DNA from: Candidatus Woesearchaeota archaeon
GTDB taxonomy: Archaea > Nanobdellota > Nanobdellia > Woesearchaeales > BM511
Direction of reading: 5' to 3'
NCBI GenBank assembly: GCA_002867475.1
Contig: PKTL01000069.1
Location: forward strand, 1 to 64,000
DNA length: 64,000 bases
The notes under the pieces were generated by a model. That model was not told where the DNA came from. It worked only from the letters and a program-made list of their open reading frames with translations, and made no database searches. Made by a program: the position numbers and the translations under genes. How positions within the stretch are numbered: the stretch's first letter is position 1; every line of letters starts with the position of its first letter. Positions 25,567-61,352 of the stretch are shown here, in pieces.

Positions 25567-25678
25567 TAGCGGGGAGAGGATTTGAACCTCCGACCTCCGG
25601 GTTTCTTGATCTCTGATCGAGAATTCGACCTTGGAGATATATGAGCCCGACGGGCACTCCTAGCTGCCCTACCCCGCT
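25567..25678 (-). tRNA. Initiator tRNA-Met (CAT) with intron at 37/38 (intron about 25603..25639)
   Basis: AGCGGGGTAGGGCAGCTAGGAGTGCCCGTCGGGCTCATA[37-nt intron]ACCCGGAGGTCGGAGGTTCAAATCCTCTCCCCGCTA; A1:U72 and three G:C pairs in anticodon stem = initiator hallmarks; no encoded CCA. Confidence 0.9.
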
Positions 25679-50110: not shown

Positions 50111-50216
50111 TTGTAACTAACATCGCTGTTACATACCCCGAAACAAAGTTTATGATTGACTTTAGTCCAATCAATAAACGACTTGAGAGTGCAACGAGGT
50201 CGACTGAAGGGAGAAG
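50111..50216 (+). repeat. Structured inter-cassette element S1
   Basis: TTGTAACTAACATCGCTGTTACATACCCCGAAACAAAG[hairpin]CGACTTGAGAGTGCAACGAGGTCGA...GAGAAG. Confidence 0.75.
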
Positions 50217-50698
50217 TTTTAGAGCCCGAAAAAGAGTTAGTTTTTCAAAGTAGTGACAAACCGTAAGATTTATATTTAATTTAATCGTGCTTTTTATTAT
50301 GTCAAAAAATAACGAAAAAAATTTATCAACTATAATGTATCTTGCAGAACAACTTGGTATTAATCTTGATGATAAAAGAACTGCTATTGCTACACCTGAA
50401 GAAATGAGCACAGCAAGAATGTATGATGGTTCTTTAGAAGCTAGAGTAATTCCTAATTCTAGACCTGCTGTTGAAATTGAAACTCCAAGAGGTCCAGGAA
50501 TTTGGATAGAATTAGTTGACCACACTAGAGATTTAGCTCCAGAAGGAGCAATATATCAAATAAGAACTTACGTACCTAAAGAAGATCATAAAGAAGGTTT
50601 AACTGGAGATGTTTATTCTGTTTATGTTGGGAAAACTGGAATTATGCTTGATTTGCCAAAATAAGTTGATAATTCTGCATTGAAATAGGGCTCTAAAA
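50217..50698 (+). repeat. Cassette 1, bounded by TTTTAGAGCCC / GGGCTCTAAAA
   Basis: 11-bp perfect IR at 50217-50227 and 50688-50698. Confidence 0.8.
50287..50664 (+). CDS. Cassette 1 hypothetical protein (start may be ATG 50299)
   Basis: Intact ORF inside IR pair. Confidence 0.6.
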   Translation: MLFIMSKNNEKNLSTIMYLAEQLGINLDDKRTAIATPEEMSTARMYDGSLEARVIPNSRPAVEIETPRGPGIWIELVDHTRDLAPEGAIYQIRTYVPKEDHKEGLTGDVYSVYVGKTGIMLDLPK

Positions 50699-50811
50699 TT
50701 GTATGTAACATCGCTGTTAAATACTCCGAGTCCGAGTTTAACTTGAACTTTAGTTCTAAGATTAAACGAAACGAGAGCGCAACGGGACAAGGAGCGACTA
50801 GCGACGCAGAG
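50699..50811 (+). repeat. Structured inter-cassette element S2
   Basis: TTGTATGTAACATCGCTGTTAAATACTCCG...GTTTAACTTGAACTTTAGTTCTAAGATTAAAC...GCAGAG. Confidence 0.75.
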
Positions 50812-50878
50812 TAAATTAGAGTCTTATTCTTCAAAAGAGTGAAACGATGCATTGAAGCTAACTTAAAAGGGCAATTTT

Positions 50879-51181
50879 TTATTCAAATTTGATATTTTCA
50901 TATTTTTTAAGATGTTTAGAACTATGCTTATATACAACATCATGATGTTCATAATCAACAAAAAATACGGTTCCGTCATCTCCAAAAAATAAAATTACAT
51001 AAGAATTATTCACATGAACACGTTTAAATTTCTTTAAATCTTATGAAAGATTTTTATAATGATATAAATTATCTGAATTTAGAATTTCATCTCTTTTATT
51101 AAGAATATTTTGAAGCTCTTTTCCTTTAAGCTTCTTAAGAGCTTTCTTGAAAAGATTGCCATATTTTCTTTTTCTCATCAT
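50879..51181 (-). pseudogene. RelE/ParE-family toxin with one in-frame TAA (51041-51043)
   Basis: MMRKRKYGNLFKKALKKLKGKELQNILNKRDEILNSDNLYHYKNLS*DLKKFKRVHVNNSYVILFFGDDGTVFFVDYEHHDVVYKHSSKHLKKYENIKFE*. Confidence 0.75.
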
Positions 51182-51426
51182 AAATTAGCTCTATCTTTAA
51201 GTTCCTTTTCAAAGATATCAGCTTCTTCGTCTGATAAAAAAGAATTAGCATCTTTACTATTCAATCTTTCTAAATATTCTTCTCTTACTTTGAAATTATC
51301 AAAGATTTTTTCACGTGCAGCTTCACGCATGAATTCTTGAACATTCAAAAAACCATGATTTTTAGCATATTCTTTAGCTTGTTCTAAAAAATCTTCAGAT
51401 AATCTTAGATTTATTTGCGTAGTCAT
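51178..51426 (-). CDS. Antitoxin (RHH-like) of cassette 2 (ORF track start 51492)
   Basis: MTTQINLRLSEDFLEQAKEYAKNHGFLNVQEFMREAAREKIF; stop overlaps toxin start. Confidence 0.75.
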   Translation of the reverse strand: MTTQINLRLSEDFLEQAKEYAKNHGFLNVQEFMREAAREKIFDNFKVREEYLERLNSKDANSFLSDEEADIFEKELKDRANL

Positions 51427-51510
51427 AATATTATATGATATTACATAATATTTAAAACTATCGCTTAATCTTAAAAAATTGCCCATTTTCAAAAAAAAGA
51501 CTCTAATTTA

Positions 51511-51594
51511 TTGTATTTAACATCAGGATCGTTGTTAGTCAGTGAGTCTGCAAGACGAACGAAGGAGCGAATAGCGACTGACAGTATGACGCAG
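51511..51594 (+). repeat. Structured inter-cassette element S3 (shorter variant)
   Basis: TTGTATTTAACATCAGGATCGTTGTTAGTCAGT...GTCTGCAAGAC...ACTGAC...GACGCAG. Confidence 0.65.
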
Positions 51595-51641
51595 AGAGCC
51601 GAACGGGCTTAAACGTAAAATTTATATATGATTAAATAACA

Positions 51642-51659
51642 TTAAATAATATTATTTAA
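51642..51659 (+). promoter_or_regulatory. 18-bp perfect palindrome TTAAATAATATTATTTAA, probable antitoxin operator
   Basis: Directly upstream of the RBS of the cassette 3 antitoxin. Confidence 0.6.
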
Positions 51660-51668
51660 GGTGATAAA

Positions 51669-51896
51669 ATGAGTATAAAATCTTTTAACGTCGATGAAGA
51701 CACATATGGGAAATTTTCCTCTTATTGTAAAGAAAATGGGATAAGTATGAGTAAACAAGTGGAAACCTTCATGAAATCAATGATTGAAGAAGATCCACAA
51801 GTGAAACAAGAATACCTAGAAAAATTAGAAAGAATAAGAAAAGGAAAATTCGTAAAAGTAAACAACTTTGCTGAGAGATATGGATTAAAAGAATGA
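51669..51896 (+). CDS. Antitoxin of cassette 3
   Basis: Short RHH-like ORF with AAGGTGATAAAATG start, overlaps toxin start. Confidence 0.75.
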   Translation: MSIKSFNVDEDTYGKFSSYCKENGISMSKQVETFMKSMIEEDPQVKQEYLEKLERIRKGKFVKVNNFAERYGLKE

Positions 51897-52156
51897 GTTA
51901 TGAACTTGAAATCCATGAAGATTTAGATAGAACTTTTTCTAAACTTTCAAAGAAAAATAAGAAACAATTAGAAATAATCTTCAAAAAAGTTGATGAAATT
52001 CTAAAAAATCCATATCATTACAAACCTCTTCGTGGAGACATGAAAGGTTCAAGAAGAGTTCATATCGATAAACACTTCGTTCTAATATATGAAATTCTTA
52101 AAGAATCAAAAGTTGTTCGATTACTAGACTATAATCATCACGACAAAGTTTACTAG
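51893..52156 (+). CDS. RelE/ParE-family toxin of cassette 3
   Basis: YHYKPLRGDMKGSRRVHIDKHFVLIYEILKESKVVRLLDYNHHDKVY. Confidence 0.9.
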   Translation: MSYELEIHEDLDRTFSKLSKKNKKQLEIIFKKVDEILKNPYHYKPLRGDMKGSRRVHIDKHFVLIYEILKESKVVRLLDYNHHDKVY

Positions 52157-52165
52157 TTCGGCTCT

Positions 52166-52333
52166 TGAGTAATATTGTAACTAACATCGCTGTTAAATGA
52201 GGTTTTCTGATAAGAAAATCTGGAAGAGCGCCGAGCCGAGGCGCGAATCATTTAATCGCTGTTAGACGACCCGAACCATACAAAGTGAAGGTGAGAGCGC
52301 AGCGTGGCAAGAAAATCTATGATTTTCGCAGAG
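52166..52333 (+). repeat. Structured inter-cassette element S4
   Basis: TTGTAACTAACATCGC-tg-TTAAATGA[two hairpins]TCATTTAA-tcGCTGTTAGACGACCCG...GAAAATCTATGATTTTC-GCAGAG. Confidence 0.75.
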
Positions 52334-53221
52334 TTCTTTTGTTTGCCCGTACATAAATTTAAATAGTTACTTTGAATTAATAATTATAATGGTTTCACTT
52401 AATAAATATCTTAATATTCTTCAAAGAGGAATTGATAACTTTATTAGTTTTGAATCTAATTCAATTTTAGAGAAAAAACAATTCCAAGCTAATTTTAATA
52501 GTGATGAAATTGAAAAAATCATCGAAGTAATTGAAAATCAAATCAAAATCATAAAAAAAGCGATTAAGCATGCAGATTTTTATCGAATTCATCTTGAAGT
52601 TATGAATAATAAAGAACTTGTTGCATACATGGAAATTAACAAGAGAGTTCCATATTTTGAGTTCCGTTATAATCAAGTTTTTTCTCAACAAAAAAAAGTG
52701 ATGGAGAAAAGATTAAAAGAATTAAGTAAAGAACAATCTAAAGCAATCAGTTCATGGAATTCAATAATAGGAATCTTTAATATATTCTGCAACGAATCAT
52801 TACATTTACTAAAAAAACAAAGAAGATATTTAGAAAAATATGAAAAAAATCCTGCAAAATATACAAAGAAAAGTTTGGGAAATAAAATGAGGAAATTTCT
52901 TAAAAATGACTTTGAAGGATTATTAAAAATTGAGGAAAAATTATTTTTAACTGTTCTTTATTCAAGTAAAAAAGAATCAGAGAATTTGAGAGAATTTGGT
53001 AAGGAAATTGAAAAATTATTACATTTAGAGGAATTCAAAATGTATCCTCATATCCCTGGTTTAGTCCTAAACATTTTTCCTGAGGCAGGTTTATCAGATA
53101 TAGCATCTGCACCATTTCATGCAGCAGGATTTTTTCTTAGTATAATTCAAAGAACCAACAAATATTACAAAGAGTGGAACGAATTCATTAAAGATAATGC
53201 TTTAAAGAGCAAACAAAAGAA
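52334..53221 (+). repeat. Cassette 4, bounded by TTCTTTTGTTTGC / GCAAACAAAAGAA
   Basis: 13-bp perfect IR at 52334-52346 and 53209-53221. Confidence 0.8.
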
Positions 53222-53231
53222 TTTTGTCTAA
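52389..53231 (+). CDS. Cassette 4 hypothetical helical protein; stop codon lies in the conserved TAAC core of the next element
   Basis: Intact ORF ending ...AGC AAA CAA AAG AAT TTT GTC TAA|CATCG. Confidence 0.65.
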   Translation: MVSLNKYLNILQRGIDNFISFESNSILEKKQFQANFNSDEIEKIIEVIENQIKIIKKAIKHADFYRIHLEVMNNKELVAYMEINKRVPYFEFRYNQVFSQQKKVMEKRLKELSKEQSKAISSWNSIIGIFNIFCNESLHLLKKQRRYLEKYEKNPAKYTKKSLGNKMRKFLKNDFEGLLKIEEKLFLTVLYSSKKESENLREFGKEIEKLLHLEEFKMYPHIPGLVLNIFPEAGLSDIASAPFHAAGFFLSIIQRTNKYYKEWNEFIKDNALKSKQKNFV

Positions 53232-53406
53232 CATCGCGATTAAGAGAAGTTATTTTGCAAAAATAATTTGGATGAGGGCGCTGCAAGGCCCGAATCTCTT
53301 AATCGCTGTTACATACCCCGAAACAAAGCTTAACTTGTCGAAGACTAAGATTAAGCGACTTGAGAGTGCAACGAGGTCGAGAATTTATGAAATAAATTCG
53401 AAGAAG
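53222..53406 (+). repeat. Structured inter-cassette element S5
   Basis: TTTTGTCTAACATCGCGATTAAGAGA[two hairpins]TCTCTTAATCGCTGTTACATACCCCGAAACAAAG[GCTTAACTTGTCGAAGACTAAGATTAAGC]GACTTGAGAGTGCAACGAGGTCGA[GAATTTATGAAATAAATTC]GAAGAAG. Confidence 0.8.
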
Positions 53407-53424
53407 TTTTGTTTTTAGCGCCGT

Positions 53425-53679
53425 TTACAATTTCTTGTAAACCTTGCTTCGATGATCTGCATGAATGACATATATAATCAATTTATTATCTTCAATGTCA
53501 GCGATTACTCTGTAATCTCCAACTCTTAATTTATATTCAGAACGACTTGATAATTTTACAAAGTAATGATGAGGGTTTTCTTTTGTTTCTTGAAGCTTCT
53601 TAAAAATTCTTTGAGAAATGTCTTTAGGTAATTTTTCTAAATATGTTGATACTTTTTCATCGAAAACTAATTCATACAT
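53425..53679 (-). CDS. RelE-family toxin
   Basis: MYELVFDEKVSTYLEKLPKDISQRIFKKLQETKENPHHYFVKLSSRSEYKLRVGDYRVIADIEDNKLIIYVIHADHRSKVYKKL. Confidence 0.92.
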   Translation of the reverse strand: MYELVFDEKVSTYLEKLPKDISQRIFKKLQETKENPHHYFVKLSSRSEYKLRVGDYRVIADIEDNKLIIYVIHADHRSKVYKKL

Positions 53680-53680
53680 T

Positions 53681-53920
53681 TTACAATCCTAATCTTTTAG
53701 ACATTTCTGCTTCAGAAACTAAATTTCCTTGTTTGATACGTGCTCTTGCTGCTTCAATAGCTTCAATAGTTTCTTTACTAAGCTCAGGTTCATCTTTAAC
53801 ATGTTTTACAATATGAACTAGTTTAGTAATCACTTCATCATAACTTTCATTACGATATTCTCTAAATTTATCAAGTTCGGACTTTGTCCCGTCATGAATT
53901 TTAATAGTTGTCGCAGTCAT
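53681..53920 (-). CDS. RelB-like antitoxin
   Basis: Small ORF abutting RelE; IR AGTTTACT...AGTAAACT upstream (53936-53963). Confidence 0.8.
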   Translation of the reverse strand: MTATTIKIHDGTKSELDKFREYRNESYDEVITKLVHIVKHVKDEPELSKETIEAIEAARARIKQGNLVSEAEMSKRLGL

Positions 53921-54003
53921 TTTATATCACCTTTGAGTTTACTTCAGTATACCATAGTAAACTAAAGTATATAAATGTATGCTTTAAGGCGCTAAAAACA
54001 AAA

Positions 54004-54096
54004 TTGTATGTAACTTCGGGTTTTGACGAAGTTTTTCGTCAGAAAAATTTTGTTTAAACCCTGTTACGCGAACCGAAAGCCTTTTGCTGAGGGAAG
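54004..54096 (+). repeat. Structured inter-cassette element S6a
   Basis: TTGTATGTAACTTCGGGTTT-TGACGAAGTTTTTCGTCA-...AAACCCTGTTACGCGAACCG...GGGAAG. Confidence 0.65.
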
Positions 54097-54339
54097 TTTT
54101 TGCTCGTGCTAATCTTAGTCAGACATACAATAATATATTATTATACTATGTATAATATATTATGTATGGTCTAGACTATCAAGATTAGTAGCACAGGAGT
54201 CAAACCTCCTTAGCACACAAAAAGTCTTAGTTCGAGCTCCACAGGGCTTGAATTTCGTAAAAAACTTTTTACGATGACTATTTGCTTCTGAAATCGAAGC
54301 AGGCAAAAGCTATGCTGCTATTTTGTGCTAGAGCAAAAA
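54097..54339 (+). repeat. Apparently non-coding cassette, bounded by TTTTTGCTC / GAGCAAAAA, containing a long hairpin (54106-54194)
   Basis: 9-bp IR; no ORF in track; arms GTGCTAATCTTAGTCAGACATACAATAATATATTAT / ATAATATATTATGTATGGTCTAGACTATCAAGATTAGTAGCAC. Confidence 0.6.
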
Positions 54340-54501
54340 TTTTGCGTAACATCGCGATTAAGAGAAGTTATTTTGGAACAAAATAATTTGGATGGAAAAG
54401 TCTGCAAGACTTTGGAATCTCTTAATCGCTGTTAGTTTCTTCTGATAAGAACGAGGAATAACTGCAAGTGGTTTTTGACGAAGTCAAAAAATTCCGAAGA
54501 G
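54340..54501 (+). repeat. Structured inter-cassette element S6b
   Basis: TTTTGCGTAACATCGCGATTAAGAGA[TTATTTTGGAACAAAATAA][AAAGTCTGCAAGACTTT]TCTCTTAATCGCTGTTAG...TTTTTGACGAAGTCAAAAA...GAAGAG. Confidence 0.75.
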
Positions 54502-54999
54502 TAATTTTTAGCCCCCATTCAATATCTTTTAGTAATATAAAGAGTAGCTTTAAAATTATCAATATCTCCAGTTGAAAGAAATCTACTTTCTAAACTTGGA
54601 CCTAAGTATAAATTAGAAGTTTTATCAGCAGTAAAATTAGGCACTGGCATAATTCCTGCACACCCCATATACCCATCTTTTAGCTTTAATAATAAATCTT
54701 CTTCAGGTTCATCAAATTCAACCCCTGTTTGACTTAACATAAAATCAACTGGCGTAGAATAATTTTCTGCAAGTGAATATAATCCTCTTCCAACAATAAA
54801 AATTGGACCTGTCATCACGATATGTTGAGGATTAAAAGGCATATCCTCTCCAGACATCATTCTTTGTGAGATTTCATTTCTCATAGATTCAATTGCAGCT
54901 TCAACAAAACCCATATGAATTGCGTTATTATCTTTCATAAAAAGTGTAACTACTAAATAGTTTATATACTTTTCTTTTTTTAAAGGGGGCTAAAAATTA
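54502..54999 (-). repeat. Cassette 6, bounded by TAATTTTTAGCCCCC / GGGGGCTAAAAATTA
   Basis: 15-bp perfect IR at 54502-54516 and 54985-54999. Confidence 0.85.
54519..54938 (-). CDS. Cassette 6 hypothetical protein
   Basis: Intact ORF inside IR pair. Confidence 0.6.
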   Translation of the reverse strand: MKDNNAIHMGFVEAAIESMRNEISQRMMSGEDMPFNPQHIVMTGPIFIVGRGLYSLAENYSTPVDFMLSQTGVEFDEPEEDLLLKLKDGYMGCAGIMPVPNFTADKTSNLYLGPSLESRFLSTGDIDNFKATLYITKRY

Positions 55000-55167
55000 T
55001 TGTAACTAACATCGGAATTTAACGAAGTCGCCGAAGGCGATTTGGGAAAAATGCGAGCCGAGCATTTTTCCGTTAAATTCCTGTTAGCCGACCCGCAGCT
55101 ACGAGCGATGTTTTGAGCGGAGTGGCAAGGGCAAGGTTTAACTTGCTTGCAAGATTAAACCGCAGAG
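55000..55167 (+). repeat. Structured inter-cassette element S7
   Basis: TTGTAACTAACATCGGAATTTAACG[TCGCC-GAA-GGCGA][GAAAAATGC-GAGCCGA-GCATTTTTC]CGTTAAATTCCTGTTAGCCGACCCG...GGTTTAACTTGCTTGCAAGATTAAACC-GCAGAG. Confidence 0.8.
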
Positions 55168-55322
55168 TTTTCTTACTGCCGAGAACTAGATAGGTGCCGT
55201 AGTTTTAACTTACTTTAGAAAAATCCTATACATAACGAGTGAAACGAGACAAATTAGTTCGCTAGAACTGGGGGCGTTCTTAAAAAAAATATTTTATGTT
55301 TAATAATTCATGAATTATTTTA

Positions 55323-56783
55323 TTAACATTTAATTGTGAATTTAATATTTATTGTTGAAGGGATATCTATTTCTATAAAATCTGCTCGTAAAATTCCATT
55401 TTCTTCTATTCGAAATTGTGCATTAATTATATCATCATACTTATTTTGACCTAATTCAATACCACATTCTTTATCATCGCACCATGAAGTATCTCTTTGA
55501 ATATTTGTTGTGGTGTTTAAAGCATTTAATTCCATAAAACATTTTGATAAATTGTATTTATTTTCTTCCAATCTATATATGTATTCCCTATAATGTCCTA
55601 CTGAATAATTTAATTTATTATTAATATAAATGCTTACTTTACAAGTATTATTTTCACAAGTTGTTAAATCATCATATTCATATCTTTTATTTCTATCTTC
55701 TTTAACAAAACCTTTAAGGATTAATTTTGAAATATTTTGATCTTTAATTTTAAATTTATTAAATTTTAATAGAATCATACCTTTATTTTCATTTAGCAAA
55801 ATTTTTTCAAATCCGAATCTATCGAAAGAATCTTTTAAATTATTGTTTGAAATATCATAAAACCCATCAATTATTTTATTATTTTTATCTGTTAATAATT
55901 CAAATTTATCATCATGATCCGCACTAGTATCTATATTATATTTTCCATAATTTATAGGTATTAGAGGTATAGTACTTGTCATTAATCCAAAATTATTTTT
56001 GATTTTAATGGGGACTTCAATATTTCTATAAATATATTCACTATTGCCATGGTCAATATAATAATTTACTAATTTTTCATCACCATATGAAAAAAATGGA
56101 ATAGATATTATTGTTGATATTATACCTAATAAAATTATAATAGGAATTGCATAAATAATAAATTTTTTAGTATTAAAATTTTTTGCTAATTTTTCATTTT
56201 TATCCTTTTTTAGAAATTCCTTGATTGATTTATCAAAATTATTAAATATTGATTTGAAATAAACATTATAAATAATAAAACAAATCATCAAAAGCATTAA
56301 AAAGAGTATAAATAATATGATTCCCTCAGCCAAAAATTCATGTAAATAAGGAATTAATGCAATAATAATAATATTTTTGATGAGAATTATTAGAAAAAAT
56401 AATTGGATAAATAATAAAGATATAAACCAATTTCCTAAATCTTTTTTTGAACATTTATGTTTGTTACGATAAATTATAAAAAAAATAAAAATAAAACCTA
56501 TTCCTGCAAAAATAATCCCTAATTGTGTGATTTCCCAAGACTTAGAAATGTCAAAATCTAAATTAAACCTATTGCTAAAATAAGTTCCTAAAAAGAAAGT
56601 AAATAAAGCAGTTATAAATAAAAAAAGCCAAATAACTATTAAATCAATTACAGAATTAGAATTATTCAATTTGAATTTTCCTTTATTTTGGAATTTTGAC
56701 CATAGTAAAAAAGTTAATAATATTGAAACTACTAAATACCCAGGCATATTAACCAAAAGATCAAATAGATTTTCCCAACCCAT
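55323..56783 (-). CDS. Cassette 7 multi-TM membrane protein
   Basis: Intact 486 aa hydrophobic ORF. Confidence 0.65.
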   Translation of the reverse strand: MGWENLFDLLVNMPGYLVVSILLTFLLWSKFQNKGKFKLNNSNSVIDLIVIWLFLFITALFTFFLGTYFSNRFNLDFDISKSWEITQLGIIFAGIGFIFIFFIIYRNKHKCSKKDLGNWFISLLFIQLFFLIILIKNIIIIALIPYLHEFLAEGIILFILFLMLLMICFIIYNVYFKSIFNNFDKSIKEFLKKDKNEKLAKNFNTKKFIIYAIPIIILLGIISTIISIPFFSYGDEKLVNYYIDHGNSEYIYRNIEVPIKIKNNFGLMTSTIPLIPINYGKYNIDTSADHDDKFELLTDKNNKIIDGFYDISNNNLKDSFDRFGFEKILLNENKGMILLKFNKFKIKDQNISKLILKGFVKEDRNKRYEYDDLTTCENNTCKVSIYINNKLNYSVGHYREYIYRLEENKYNLSKCFMELNALNTTTNIQRDTSWCDDKECGIELGQNKYDDIINAQFRIEENGILRADFIEIDIPSTINIKFTIKC

Positions 56784-56920
56784 AAAATTATTTATTAAAT
56801 CTTTTATTTAAAAAGCTTTCTTGTGAGTTTGCAAAGATTGGGATAAATTTCTCAATTATTTATCCCAAGACAGCGTTTAAAAAAGAAAGAGTTATATAAT
56901 TAAATAATAAATTGAAATAG

Positions 56921-57586
56921 ATGTCAGAAAAATTAACAGGTTCAGAAATTGAAAAAAAAGTATATGAACACATTATAAAAAGTGTTGGTATGGGTTATAC
57001 TACTGACTTTAATCCTTTAAATTTATCTACAGAAGGGATTGCTGATTGTCTTGGTTTATCAATGGAAGAAGTTGAAGAAGCAATCAACAAACTAAAAGGT
57101 GAAGGTGAATCAACCAATATTGAGAGAATAGAATCTGTGAAACCTAAATTTGAAATTTGGTTACCTAAAACTAAAAAAGGTAAAGAAGTTTTAGATGAAT
57201 TATGTAATTCAGGCGTTGCTATTAAAGGTTCAATGCAATGGTTTTACACTTTTTTACTTTTGGCAGCTTCATATATTTTCACATTTGAAAAACCATACTT
57301 AGCAAATGTGTTAGAATTAAAATCATTTAATGAGTATTTTGTATGGGCTGTTATTTTTACAGGGATTTCATCATACTTTGGAAGTTATTTGGCTCATAAA
57401 TGGCATCAAATAAATTATGAAATGGAAAGAATAAAAGGCGGCAAATATTACATTTATGCATTTATATTATTGATTTCAGGAATAATATATAGTTGGATGA
57501 AAGAAATAGATGTTGCACTTATCATTACAAGTGTAGGAACAATAGCAAATTTGGTATTAGTAATATATCAAATCATAAAAAAATAA
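56921..57586 (+). CDS. Cassette 7 wHTH-like + TM protein
   Basis: LSTEGIADCLGLSMEEVEEAINKLKGEGE then four hydrophobic segments. Confidence 0.6.
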   Translation: MSEKLTGSEIEKKVYEHIIKSVGMGYTTDFNPLNLSTEGIADCLGLSMEEVEEAINKLKGEGESTNIERIESVKPKFEIWLPKTKKGKEVLDELCNSGVAIKGSMQWFYTFLLLAASYIFTFEKPYLANVLELKSFNEYFVWAVIFTGISSYFGSYLAHKWHQINYEMERIKGGKYYIYAFILLISGIIYSWMKEIDVALIITSVGTIANLVLVIYQIIKK

Positions 57587-57587
57587 A

Positions 57588-58298
57588 ATGGCAAAGAAAA
57601 AATCATATGAAGAAGGGAGTATTGCAGATTTTGCAGCTCAGGGATTAAAAAATATTAAGAAATTATCAGGAAGTTCTTTAATGAGTGAAAAATTAGTTGG
57701 TTTAAGCACATTTTTATTTTCATTGGTATTTACCTTTAGTTTCGGTAAATGGTTAATACAACCCGAACAGTTATATGAAATAAGTTCAGTAGTTATTTTA
57801 ATTTTAGGATTAATGATTGGTCTAGGATTATCTTCAGGTTATTCATTTATATTGTTAGCAATTTCAGACTTTGCAAAAGATAAAATTCAAAGTTTAAGAT
57901 TAGGAATTGTTTTCTTATTTATTTCAATTCCTTTGTCAATAGCGGGATTAGCATTAAATTCAAACTTTTTCATAGCTTCTAGTTGGATATTAATTGTTGT
58001 TCAACTTGCATTAATCTTGTTAAGTTTCTTTTTTAGCTTTTCATCTCAGAGCATTCCAGATATTAAAGTAAATGCTTCAGGTATATGGAAATCTATAGGT
58101 AGAGCTGGGTCAATTGCAAGTATATTAGGTTTAGTATTGGCTGTTTTAGTAATACTCGCACCACAATATTTCGGACAAACATTATACCAATGTATTGATG
58201 GAACTGTTCAAAAAAGTTTAGAAGCATGTCCAAATATAAAAGAATATTTAGTCACATTTGCTAAAGAACAAGGATATAATTTAACTAATATTAACTAA
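57588..58298 (+). CDS. Cassette 7 multi-TM protein
   Basis: Hydrophobic ORF abutting the previous gene. Confidence 0.6.
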   Translation: MAKKKSYEEGSIADFAAQGLKNIKKLSGSSLMSEKLVGLSTFLFSLVFTFSFGKWLIQPEQLYEISSVVILILGLMIGLGLSSGYSFILLAISDFAKDKIQSLRLGIVFLFISIPLSIAGLALNSNFFIASSWILIVVQLALILLSFFFSFSSQSIPDIKVNASGIWKSIGRAGSIASILGLVLAVLVILAPQYFGQTLYQCIDGTVQKSLEACPNIKEYLVTFAKEQGYNLTNIN

Positions 58299-58325
58299 AT
58301 TAAAAAATATGGGGAAAAAATAAAA

Positions 58326-58631
58326 ATGGAAAATAAAGAAATATTTATTCAAGCTATAAATGAAAAAAAGAAAGTGAAAGTGAAAATCAATACTGATGAA
58401 AAAGGAATTATTATAAGAGATTGTATTCCTTTTGATTTCGGAACTGGTAAATTGCCAGGAATCAGATATCATTTTCTCGATTTAACTAGTCCTGATGGAC
58501 CTCACAATTTATCTGTTTTACCTAATAAATTATTAGAAATTGAAATTTTAGATGAAACATTTAATCCTGCTGATTACATTAAATGGAAACCTAATTGGAA
58601 ATTAGCAAGAGATTGGGGAGAATTTTCTTAG
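58326..58631 (+). CDS. Cassette 7 small protein
   Basis: Intact 101 aa ORF. Confidence 0.55.
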   Translation: MENKEIFIQAINEKKKVKVKINTDEKGIIIRDCIPFDFGTGKLPGIRYHFLDLTSPDGPHNLSVLPNKLLEIEILDETFNPADYIKWKPNWKLARDWGEFS

Positions 58632-58873
58632 ATTTTAAGAACGCCCCTTTTTATTTTCTTTTTTTTCTAAAGTAAGTTAAAATTTGGGTGGAGTGCGAGG
58701 TTTTCTCGTGCGTAACCGTTAAACATTTGTTAGATACAATCTTTCCAATGTATATTATACGAAGTTTTTTCTAAGCCTTCTCCTCTATGAGAAGAGCTTT
58801 CCCTTTTAACGAAGGCACCTACCTTTTTAGATTCCCGGGCACGTTTTGTCGTCTACAAAAGGCAGTAAGAAAA

Positions 58874-58940
58874 TTTTGGCTAACATCTTTTAGGTGAATT
58901 TTTATGAGAATAAAAGATGTCTTTTATTTTTAAGTTAAAA
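58874..58940 (+). repeat. Terminal structured element S8 (truncated or divergent)
   Basis: TTTTGGCTAACATCTTTTA...TAAAAGATGT. Confidence 0.55.
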
Positions 58941-59374: not shown

Positions 59375-59614
59375 ATGAGTGGCTATAAATTGAATATGAC
59401 AAAATACACGGCATTTATACAAAAAGATGAAGATATGTATGTTGCTACATGTGTAGAACTTGGCACGGTTAGTCAAGGATACACGGTTGAAGAAGCATTA
59501 GATAATCTAAAAGAAGCAACCGAACTTTACCTTGAAGAAATGCCAGGAGAAGAAGTTTCTGATTATTCTTTTACTACCACTTTTGAAGTTGGTGGTAAAA
59601 GTGTTAAAGCTTAA
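59375..59614 (+). CDS. hicB: HicB-family antitoxin
   Basis: KYTAFIQKDEDMYVATCVELGTVSQGYTVEEALDNLKEATELYLEE. Confidence 0.9.
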   Translation: MSGYKLNMTKYTAFIQKDEDMYVATCVELGTVSQGYTVEEALDNLKEATELYLEEMPGEEVSDYSFTTTFEVGGKSVKA

Positions 59615-59831
59615 AAAAATTTCTGGAAAAAACTGTGTTAAACTAATTTGTAATAAGTTCAGTTTTAAATATGTTAGGCAATCTGGAAGTCATATAATTC
59701 TTAAAAAAATAAGTGGAGATACCACAATTACTTGTGTTGTTCCTAATCATTCTGAAATTAAAATTAACACTCTGAAAGGATTATTAAAACAAGCAAAAAT
59801 TAGACAAGAGGATTTTATAAAATATCAATAG
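59601..59831 (+). CDS. hicA: HicA-family toxin (likely GTG start; ORF track start 59532)
   Basis: LKKISGKNCVKLICNKFSFKYVRQSGSHIILKK...VVPNHSEIKINTLKGLLKQAKI. Confidence 0.9.
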   Translation: MLKLKKISGKNCVKLICNKFSFKYVRQSGSHIILKKISGDTTITCVVPNHSEIKINTLKGLLKQAKIRQEDFIKYQ

Positions 59832-60646: not shown

Positions 60647-60663
60647 ATTTAGATTATCTAAAT
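60647..60663 (+). promoter_or_regulatory. Palindrome ATTTAGAT-T-ATCTAAAT, probable vapBC operator
   Basis: 8-bp arms overlapping the antitoxin start region. Confidence 0.5.
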
Positions 60664-60670
60664 GTTTGCT

Positions 60671-60934
60671 ATGGGAACTATAACTGTAAATGTATCGGAC
60701 GAGACTGAAAAAATGTTTAGAGAAGCTGTAAAACAAAATATTGGAATAGGAAAGGGGGTCCTCGGAAAAGCTATAGGCGAAGCTATGAATATGTGGGCTG
60801 AAGAAAAAGAAAGAGAAGAAAGAAGAAGAAAAGCTATTGAAAGACTTGAGAAAGGATTTGATTTAGGGAATTTTTCTTATAAGAATAGAGAGGAATTATA
60901 TGGAGATAGATTTAAAAAGTGGGATAAAAAATAA
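60671..60934 (+). CDS. VapB-like antitoxin (ORF track start 60662)
   Basis: Short charged ORF overlapping a PIN toxin gene. Confidence 0.7.
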   Translation: MGTITVNVSDETEKMFREAVKQNIGIGKGVLGKAIGEAMNMWAEEKEREERRRKAIERLEKGFDLGNFSYKNREELYGDRFKKWDKK

Positions 60935-61352
60935 TATTGAGAAAAAAGTTTTTATTGACACTAATATTTTTATTTATGCTTATAATAATGAGAATTCTAA
61001 AAGAAATATTTGCTTGCAGATTGTTAAAAACTTATTTAAAAATAAAATTTCATATATAAGTATTCAAACATTAAGTGAACTTTCTAATGTTCTATTACAC
61101 AAAATGAAATTATCCAACTTGGATTTAAATGAAGTTATATATGAATTGGTCGAATTTGGAAATCTTTGTGAAATTAAATCAAGCACAATTATTAAAGCAA
61201 TAGATATACATAAAAAATTTAAGATTCATTTTTTCGATGCACAGATTGTTGCTACTATGATTCAAAATGGTGTTGATACAATATATACTGAAAATGTGAA
61301 GGATTTTTCTAAAGTTCCTTTTATTAAAGCTATTAACCCTTTAGATATTTAA
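60900..61352 (+). CDS. PIN-domain toxin (VapC-like)
   Basis: KKVFIDTNIFIYAYNNENSKRN...LSELSNVL...IHFFDAQIVATMIQNGVDTIYTENVKDF. Confidence 0.9.
   Translation: MEIDLKSGIKNNIEKKVFIDTNIFIYAYNNENSKRNICLQIVKNLFKNKISYISIQTLSELSNVLLHKMKLSNLDLNEVIYELVEFGNLCEIKSSTIIKAIDIHKKFKIHFFDAQIVATMIQNGVDTIYTENVKDFSKVPFIKAINPLDI
61337..61352 (+). repeat. 16-bp direct repeat CCCTTTAGATATTTAA, copy 2 (3' end of vapC)
   Basis: Identical to 60603-60618. Confidence 0.85.

Follow-up and report, generated by a model that had tools for sequence, protein, structure and literature searches.

An integron-like gene-cassette array with branched, attC-like hairpin sites and a proposed XerA-type integrase in a woesearchaeal contig

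The window studied here, i.e., the whole 64,000-nucleotide stretch of contig PKTL01000069.1 from a Candidatus Woesearchaeota archaeon, contains a row of similar hairpins with different genes between them, which raises the question of what these hairpins are and what acts on them. We consider the region to be an integron-like gene-cassette array, with the hairpins as attC-like sites and a neighboring XerA-type recombinase as the proposed integrase, a reading to which we assign a probability of roughly 85%. The attC-like reading was preferred because core bases match within cassettes, cassettes present in more than one genome have their breakpoint at TAA^C, and the sites lie on one strand with the recombinase at a fixed end.

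The array spans 50.1-58.9 kb and comprises eight hairpin sites and one half-site (58881), on the + strand throughout (Table 1). In the four insert-bearing sites, TAACA is followed by a TC bulge, a stem of 11 bp (less in the 52182 site) and two hairpins joined by TTGG or CTGG. An initial annotation of this DNA had described such an insert in four sites, and it is indeed found at 52182-52264, 53229-53311, 54347-54434 and 55007-55086, although the last of these falls outside the range then given; this site is also the source of TCGCC-GAA-GGCGA and of the second GAGCCGA loop. All the sequences quoted at the time are present in the window, yet two hairpins that had been placed inside the TAACA/TGTTA stem, GAC-GAA-GTC (~54477) and GAATTTAT-GAA-ATAAATTC (~53382), are both located in the structured arm 3' of that stem. 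The two sites reported to lack the insert, at 50118-50131 and 50706-50719, are indeed truncated; that at 51518-51537 is nearly so, and that at 54011-54066 has a shorter, variant insert. The truncated sites occupy the end far from the integrase, which is where the older cassettes would be expected to lie.

In an alignment of 28 sites, from which a covariance model of the site was built, 99.1% of cells pair and 12 pairs present changes on both sides (0 of 500 shuffles). The L stem is fully paired in the consensus, and the 2-nt TC bulge beside the R pair is the sole bulge. The annotation's view of the insert as a variable terminal structure with GNA mini-hairpins agrees with the homologues, but “variable” was an overstatement, as AAGTT...ATTTGG in the insert is more conserved. 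This conservation is partly due to selection by the search pattern in the loci found with it; AAGYY...ATTTGG is kept in 41 of 56 sites that do not match the pattern. In the inserts of four loci (L038, L105, L118 and L151), long alternative hairpin modules, e.g., GGGAAATCGCTTGGCGATTTAGCGTAAGCGACC and TTTTGAGGCAACCCACAAAA, recur across different genomes and look as if they had been exchanged between sites.

Table 1. Positions of the sites, inter-site stretches and proposed integrase in the window.
Feature	Positions	Strand	Details
Truncated attC-like site, integrase-distal array end	50118-50131	+	TAACATCGCTGTTA
Cassette 1 inter-site stretch	50132-50708		ORF 50287-50664(+); private repeat 50217-50227 / 50688-50698
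Truncated attC-like site	50706-50719	+	TAACATCGCTGTTA
Cassette 2 inter-site stretch	50720-51520		CopG/RelB-like ORF 51178-51492(-); private repeat 50812-50825 / 51497-51510
Truncated attC-like site	51518-51537	+	TAACATCAGGATCGTTGTTA
Cassette 3 inter-site stretch	51538-52184		Antitoxin-like ORF 51669-51896(+), ParE/YafQ-like toxin 51893-52156(+); private repeat 51595-51604 / 52156-52165
attC-like site with insert, GAGCCGA loop, first hairpin loop not GNA	52182-52264	+	Model R1 58.1 bits
Cassette 4 inter-site stretch	52265-53231		ORF 52389-53231(+); private repeat 52334-52346 / 53209-53221
attC-like site, intact, insert with GCA loops	53229-53311	+	Model R1 78.2 bits
Cassette 5 inter-site stretch	53312-54013		ParE-like toxin 53425-53679(-), antitoxin-like ORF 53681-53920(-); private repeat 53407-53422 / 53988-54003
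Variant attC-like site, short insert	54011-54066	+	Model R1 31.5 bits
Cassette 6 inter-site stretch	54067-54349		No evident ORF, large hairpins; private repeat 54097-54105 / 54331-54339
attC-like site, intact, insert with GAA and GCA loops	54347-54434	+	Model R1 75.6 bits
Cassette 7 inter-site stretch	54435-55009		ORF 54519-54938(-); private repeat 54502-54516 / 54985-54999
attC-like site, intact, three-way-junction insert, GAA and GAGCCGA loops	55007-55086	+	Model R1 71.9 bits
Cassette 8 inter-site stretch (integrase-proximal)	55087-58883		ORFs 55323-56783(-), 56921-57586(+), 57588-58298(+), 58326-58631(+); private repeat 55168-55180 / 58861-58873
attI-like half-site	58870-58921	+	...GGCTAA^CATCTTTTAGGTGAAT...; short inverted repeat, without TGTTA
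XerA-type tyrosine recombinase, proposed integrase, 258 aa	59842-60618	+	Pfam PF00589, 7e-30

The units between the window sites measure 0.3-3.8 kb, and in most of them there is one small gene or a few. Cassette 6 contains large imperfect palindromes (~54105-54200) with neither an Rfam nor a tRNA match, and is possibly a non-coding cassette. For attC-like sites, one expects the 4 nt flanking TAAC/GTTA on the outside to agree between the two ends of a cassette, but not between the two sides of one site. The within-cassette match averaged 3.24 of 4 and was perfect in 55 of 88 cassettes, compared with 1.77 within sites and 1.58 for random pairs. Every cassette in the window shows the match, with runs of 2-5 bases beyond TTA (within-site runs are of 0-1), as do 4/4 cassettes of a class 1 integron taken as positive control.

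The unit of inheritance can be read from cassettes common to different genomes at 85-96% identity (the locus pairs L038/L098, L109/L122, L037/L093 and L038/L051), which extend from the left hairpin edge, or from inside the hairpin, to the TAAC of the next site. Since these shared cassettes end at TAA^C, the hairpin and the unit on its right move together. A cassette boundary placed solely at G^TTA (window + strand) was also considered and dropped, because shared cassettes put the hairpin with the downstream unit. On sequence grounds, the unit is the canonical integron unit reversed, i.e., G^TTA...gene...TAAC-hairpin-G. No case was found in which one of two related genomes carries an insertion that the other lacks.

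Regarding the enzyme, the window recombinase has the R, K, HxxR, GH and Y residues, and its best PDB match is the P. abyssi XerC-like structure 4a8e. It obtained 171.8 bits against NF040815, below the cut-off of 220, and 132 bits against TIGR02249, in two stretches. It and nine other array-linked proteins all remain below the TIGR02249 cut-off, mostly matching in two stretches around a gap, and residues 196-225 and 237-247 of IntI1 are missing in more than 80% of array-linked integrases. These proteins match XerA over their own full length, with the catalytic residues present. In the tree, ten host XerA formed a moderately supported group (91/53) that includes no array-linked protein, and the array-linked proteins fall into several other groups rather than one clade. 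In all 27 loci that hold both an array and a XerA-like recombinase, the latter lies at one fixed array end and on one fixed strand; in canonical orientation it is upstream and divergent, as in the intI1 layout.

Two genomes of the same family as the window genome (G001 and G002) encode relatives of the integrase (L231 and L232) with no detectable sites on their contigs; the array may have been lost or may lie on another contig, or the proteins may have a different role. Given that these sister integrases lack sites and that the window genome contains no better XerA match than the window recombinase, the latter might also serve as host XerA.

Toxin-antitoxin genes flank the window integrase on both sides: HicB/HicA-like ORFs directly before it (59375-59831) and a VapB/VapC-like pair after it (60662-61352), both identified by eye from translations. 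A short repeat, CACTGGACA, clusters around it (59206, 59323, 61355, 61362, 61399 and 61415). Copies of this repeat, of which there are 58 in 1.45 Mb of loci, also lie close to where related integrases begin (e.g., L043, L052, L179, L201, L203, L204 and L214), and could be binding sites for the integrase or a regulator.

The boundary between the array and the integrase side lies at 58883/58884 in the window. Half-sites of the attI-like kind found there, i.e., TAAC and a short inverted repeat without TGTTA, are located 58-211 nt before the integrase start in 12 loci, in two of which (L197 and L201) the fetched stretch contains no site, and no half-site was equally close to host XerA at the six genes checked. 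The window half-site resembles the attI-like CATCTATTAGACGAAG of L043 and shows complementarity with the beginning of the same cassette. It is 937 nt from the integrase, with the HicAB-like genes between them.

The most serious competing explanation is that of an ordinary archaeal CALIN mobilized in trans by a canonical IntI, in which case the XerA-like neighbor would be coincidental. Most archaeal integrons reported so far are attC clusters that lack an integrase (CALINs), with six IntI only (Ghaly et al. 2022, PMC9668308), and many of the present arrays have no recombinase on the same contig, both of which fit this explanation. Nevertheless, we deem it unlikely: no IntI was matched in 288 genomes of the order, a search whose control genomes had no integrons and whose sensitivity rests on IntI1 scoring 508 bits on the model. 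In addition, the recombinase has a fixed position and strand in 27/27 loci, half-sites lie beside XerA-like genes in 12 loci, the present sites do not have the second extrahelical base contacted by the I2 helix of IntI, and the site model yielded no match in class 1 integron regions.

The loops were compared across 181 related sites. Among 95 unique triloop hairpins in the insert, 66 are GNA, against 11.7% expected (binomial p ~2e-39), and one is TNC. Sites outside the search pattern present GNA in 34 of 54 cases and TNC in none, and the arms 3' of the site present GNA in 36 of 67 and TNC in one. The GNA loops are closed by C-G in 34 cases and by T-A in 31. The 7-nt insert loops (n = 38) include GAGCCGA twelve times and GAGCTGA four times. 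The annotation's remark that loops are non-random is thus confirmed across homologues, and the GAGCCGA loop it noticed in two window sites is a recurrent feature of the family; in it, sheared GA/GA pairs might enclose a GCC loop.

In single-stranded DNA, GNA mini-hairpins have exceptional stability (GCGAAGC; PMC4686876), so the + strand is the one that gains from such caps. G.T exceeds A.C on this strand by 32:7 (p = 7e-5) when pattern-free positions and unique stems are considered; the ratio over all positions, 75:15, is inflated by the stem letters that are fixed in the search pattern and by related stems that are counted more than once. One strand alone has the GNA caps and the wobble pairs, which mark it as the folded strand. 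The folded window + strand corresponds to the canonical attC bottom strand, which is the strand used in known integrons (PMC3053210). Since some GNA hairpins sit outside the site, the GNA bias may reflect general hairpin stability in single-stranded DNA.

Strong covariation and wobble pairs on one strand would also be expected from structured RNAs between genes, such as leaders, terminators or small RNAs. We regard this as very improbable, because the loops are DNA-type GNA triloops and not GNRA tetraloops, core bases match across the gene and not within the element, and genes are found on either strand, mostly antisense to the folded strand. The site lies at the 3' end of the ORF in 52 of 76 decided cases (52:24), which fits integrons and not RNA leaders. 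Furthermore, Rfam yielded no RNA family in the array region with curated or relaxed thresholds (to E 0.5), and ARAGORN no tRNA. Elsewhere in the window, a tRNA with a long insertion was found by Rfam and not by ARAGORN (25567-25678, - strand; 112 nt for a 71-position model), and probably contains an intron.

Each window cassette also contains, further in than the core match, a second, private perfect repeat of 9-16 nt (Table 1). In other genomes, a private repeat of at least 10 nt is present in 48 of 84 cassettes, against 13 of 336 mismatched pairs; in the four class 1 integron cassettes, such a repeat reaches at most 9 nt. In the array, the two arms are a gene's length apart, and they adjoin a single site only in the excised circle.

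The site model matches 108 of 288 genomes of the order (37%), and a blastn search found the element in 17 of 60, some of these matches being short and weak. A pattern scan of public genomes yielded 113 stretches in archaeal bins (Woesearchaeota, Pacearchaeota, Aenigmatarchaeota, Nanohaloarchaeota, methanogen/ANME and Lokiarchaeia) and bacterial bins, the latter including Patescibacteria (e.g., Falkowbacteria, Dojkabacteria and Parcubacteria), where labels are bin assignments. The window genome belongs to the same family as genome G003, and clear element matches within the window genome are confined to the window contig. A plasmid collection contained no similar site, and the single pattern match in a viral collection was rejected as chance, with 10 bits by the model.

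Repeated insertion of a non-autonomous transposon (MITE/REP or IS200/IS605 type) with the hairpins as its ends would account for repeated hairpins and for private inverted repeats around each gene, yet this is the least probable explanation of all, as sites are in one orientation (on one strand in 60/60 multi-site loci) and, in the window genome, on one contig, different genes lie between identical boundaries, shared units end at TAA^C, and the gene in the fixed position encodes a tyrosine recombinase instead of an HUH or DDE transposase.

Under the preferred integron-like reading, the window + strand folds as single-stranded DNA into the TAACA/TGTTA R pair, the fixed 2-nt TC bulge, the 11-bp L stem and a three-way junction, whose two hairpins are capped by GNA or GAGCCGA loops. 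These caps would aid folding of the + strand and fix which strand folds, and the insert may likewise assist folding or recognition. The XerA-type recombinase would then cut the + strand at TAA^C, and cassettes would be joined at the attI-like half-site, at 58883/58884.

A broader proposal, for and against which we see the odds as roughly balanced, is that of a separate integron lineage, widespread in DPANN archaea and shared with Patescibacteria and methanogens. In it, a XerA-type recombinase without the I2 helix would recognize single-stranded attC through the bulge and the three-way junction; the private outer repeats could pair across the site in the excised circle alone, giving the circle a better fold than the arrayed sites and favoring capture over excision. 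If true, structure-specific single-strand recombination would be possible without the I2 helix. A XerA-type enzyme having an attI of its own would account for the movement of integrase-less attC clusters, and such integrases would be missed by searches requiring the IntI-specific domain. Considering that 37% of the sampled genomes of the order were matched, the system could be a major gene-exchange route in DPANN archaea, and the private repeats bear on the open question of cassette origin.

In comparison with d(GNA) mini-hairpins (PMC4686876), the folded strand of the present sites has the same C-GNA-G loops, and C-GAA-G is also present in the aadA1 attC bottom strand; however, T-A is the closing pair in about half of the present GNA loops, and GAGCCGA occurs as a second recurrent loop. 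In comparison with XerA (P. abyssi 4a8e, T. acidophilum 5hxy), the array-linked enzyme is alike in overall length, domains and catalytic residues, but the array-linked proteins are outside the main host group of ten and beside cassette arrays.

With known integrons (IntI/attI/attC), the present system shares cassette arrays, the G^TTA boundary, cassette-wise core complementarity, R and L pairs on a folded bottom strand (which the enzyme would use here as well), an upstream and divergent integrase, an attI-like site and several toxin-antitoxin cassettes. Some of the Nanoarchaeota attCs of Ghaly et al. 2022 (PMC9668308) are possibly the same as the present sites. Unlike in known integrons, each site ends in a conserved three-way junction, and cassettes contain a private inverted repeat in addition. 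In the R' core, GTTA is nearly fixed, and the full GTTRRRY fits 55 of 179 sites. Integron attC sites have two extrahelical bases on one side (T12'' and G20''; PMC3053210), whereas the present L stem is without the second, which would fit the absence from the array-linked integrases of the IntI-specific (I2) region that known integrons have. Judged from sequence comparisons, the system is an integron by its architecture and cassette behavior, not by the integrase criterion, and the structure of its sites is distinct.
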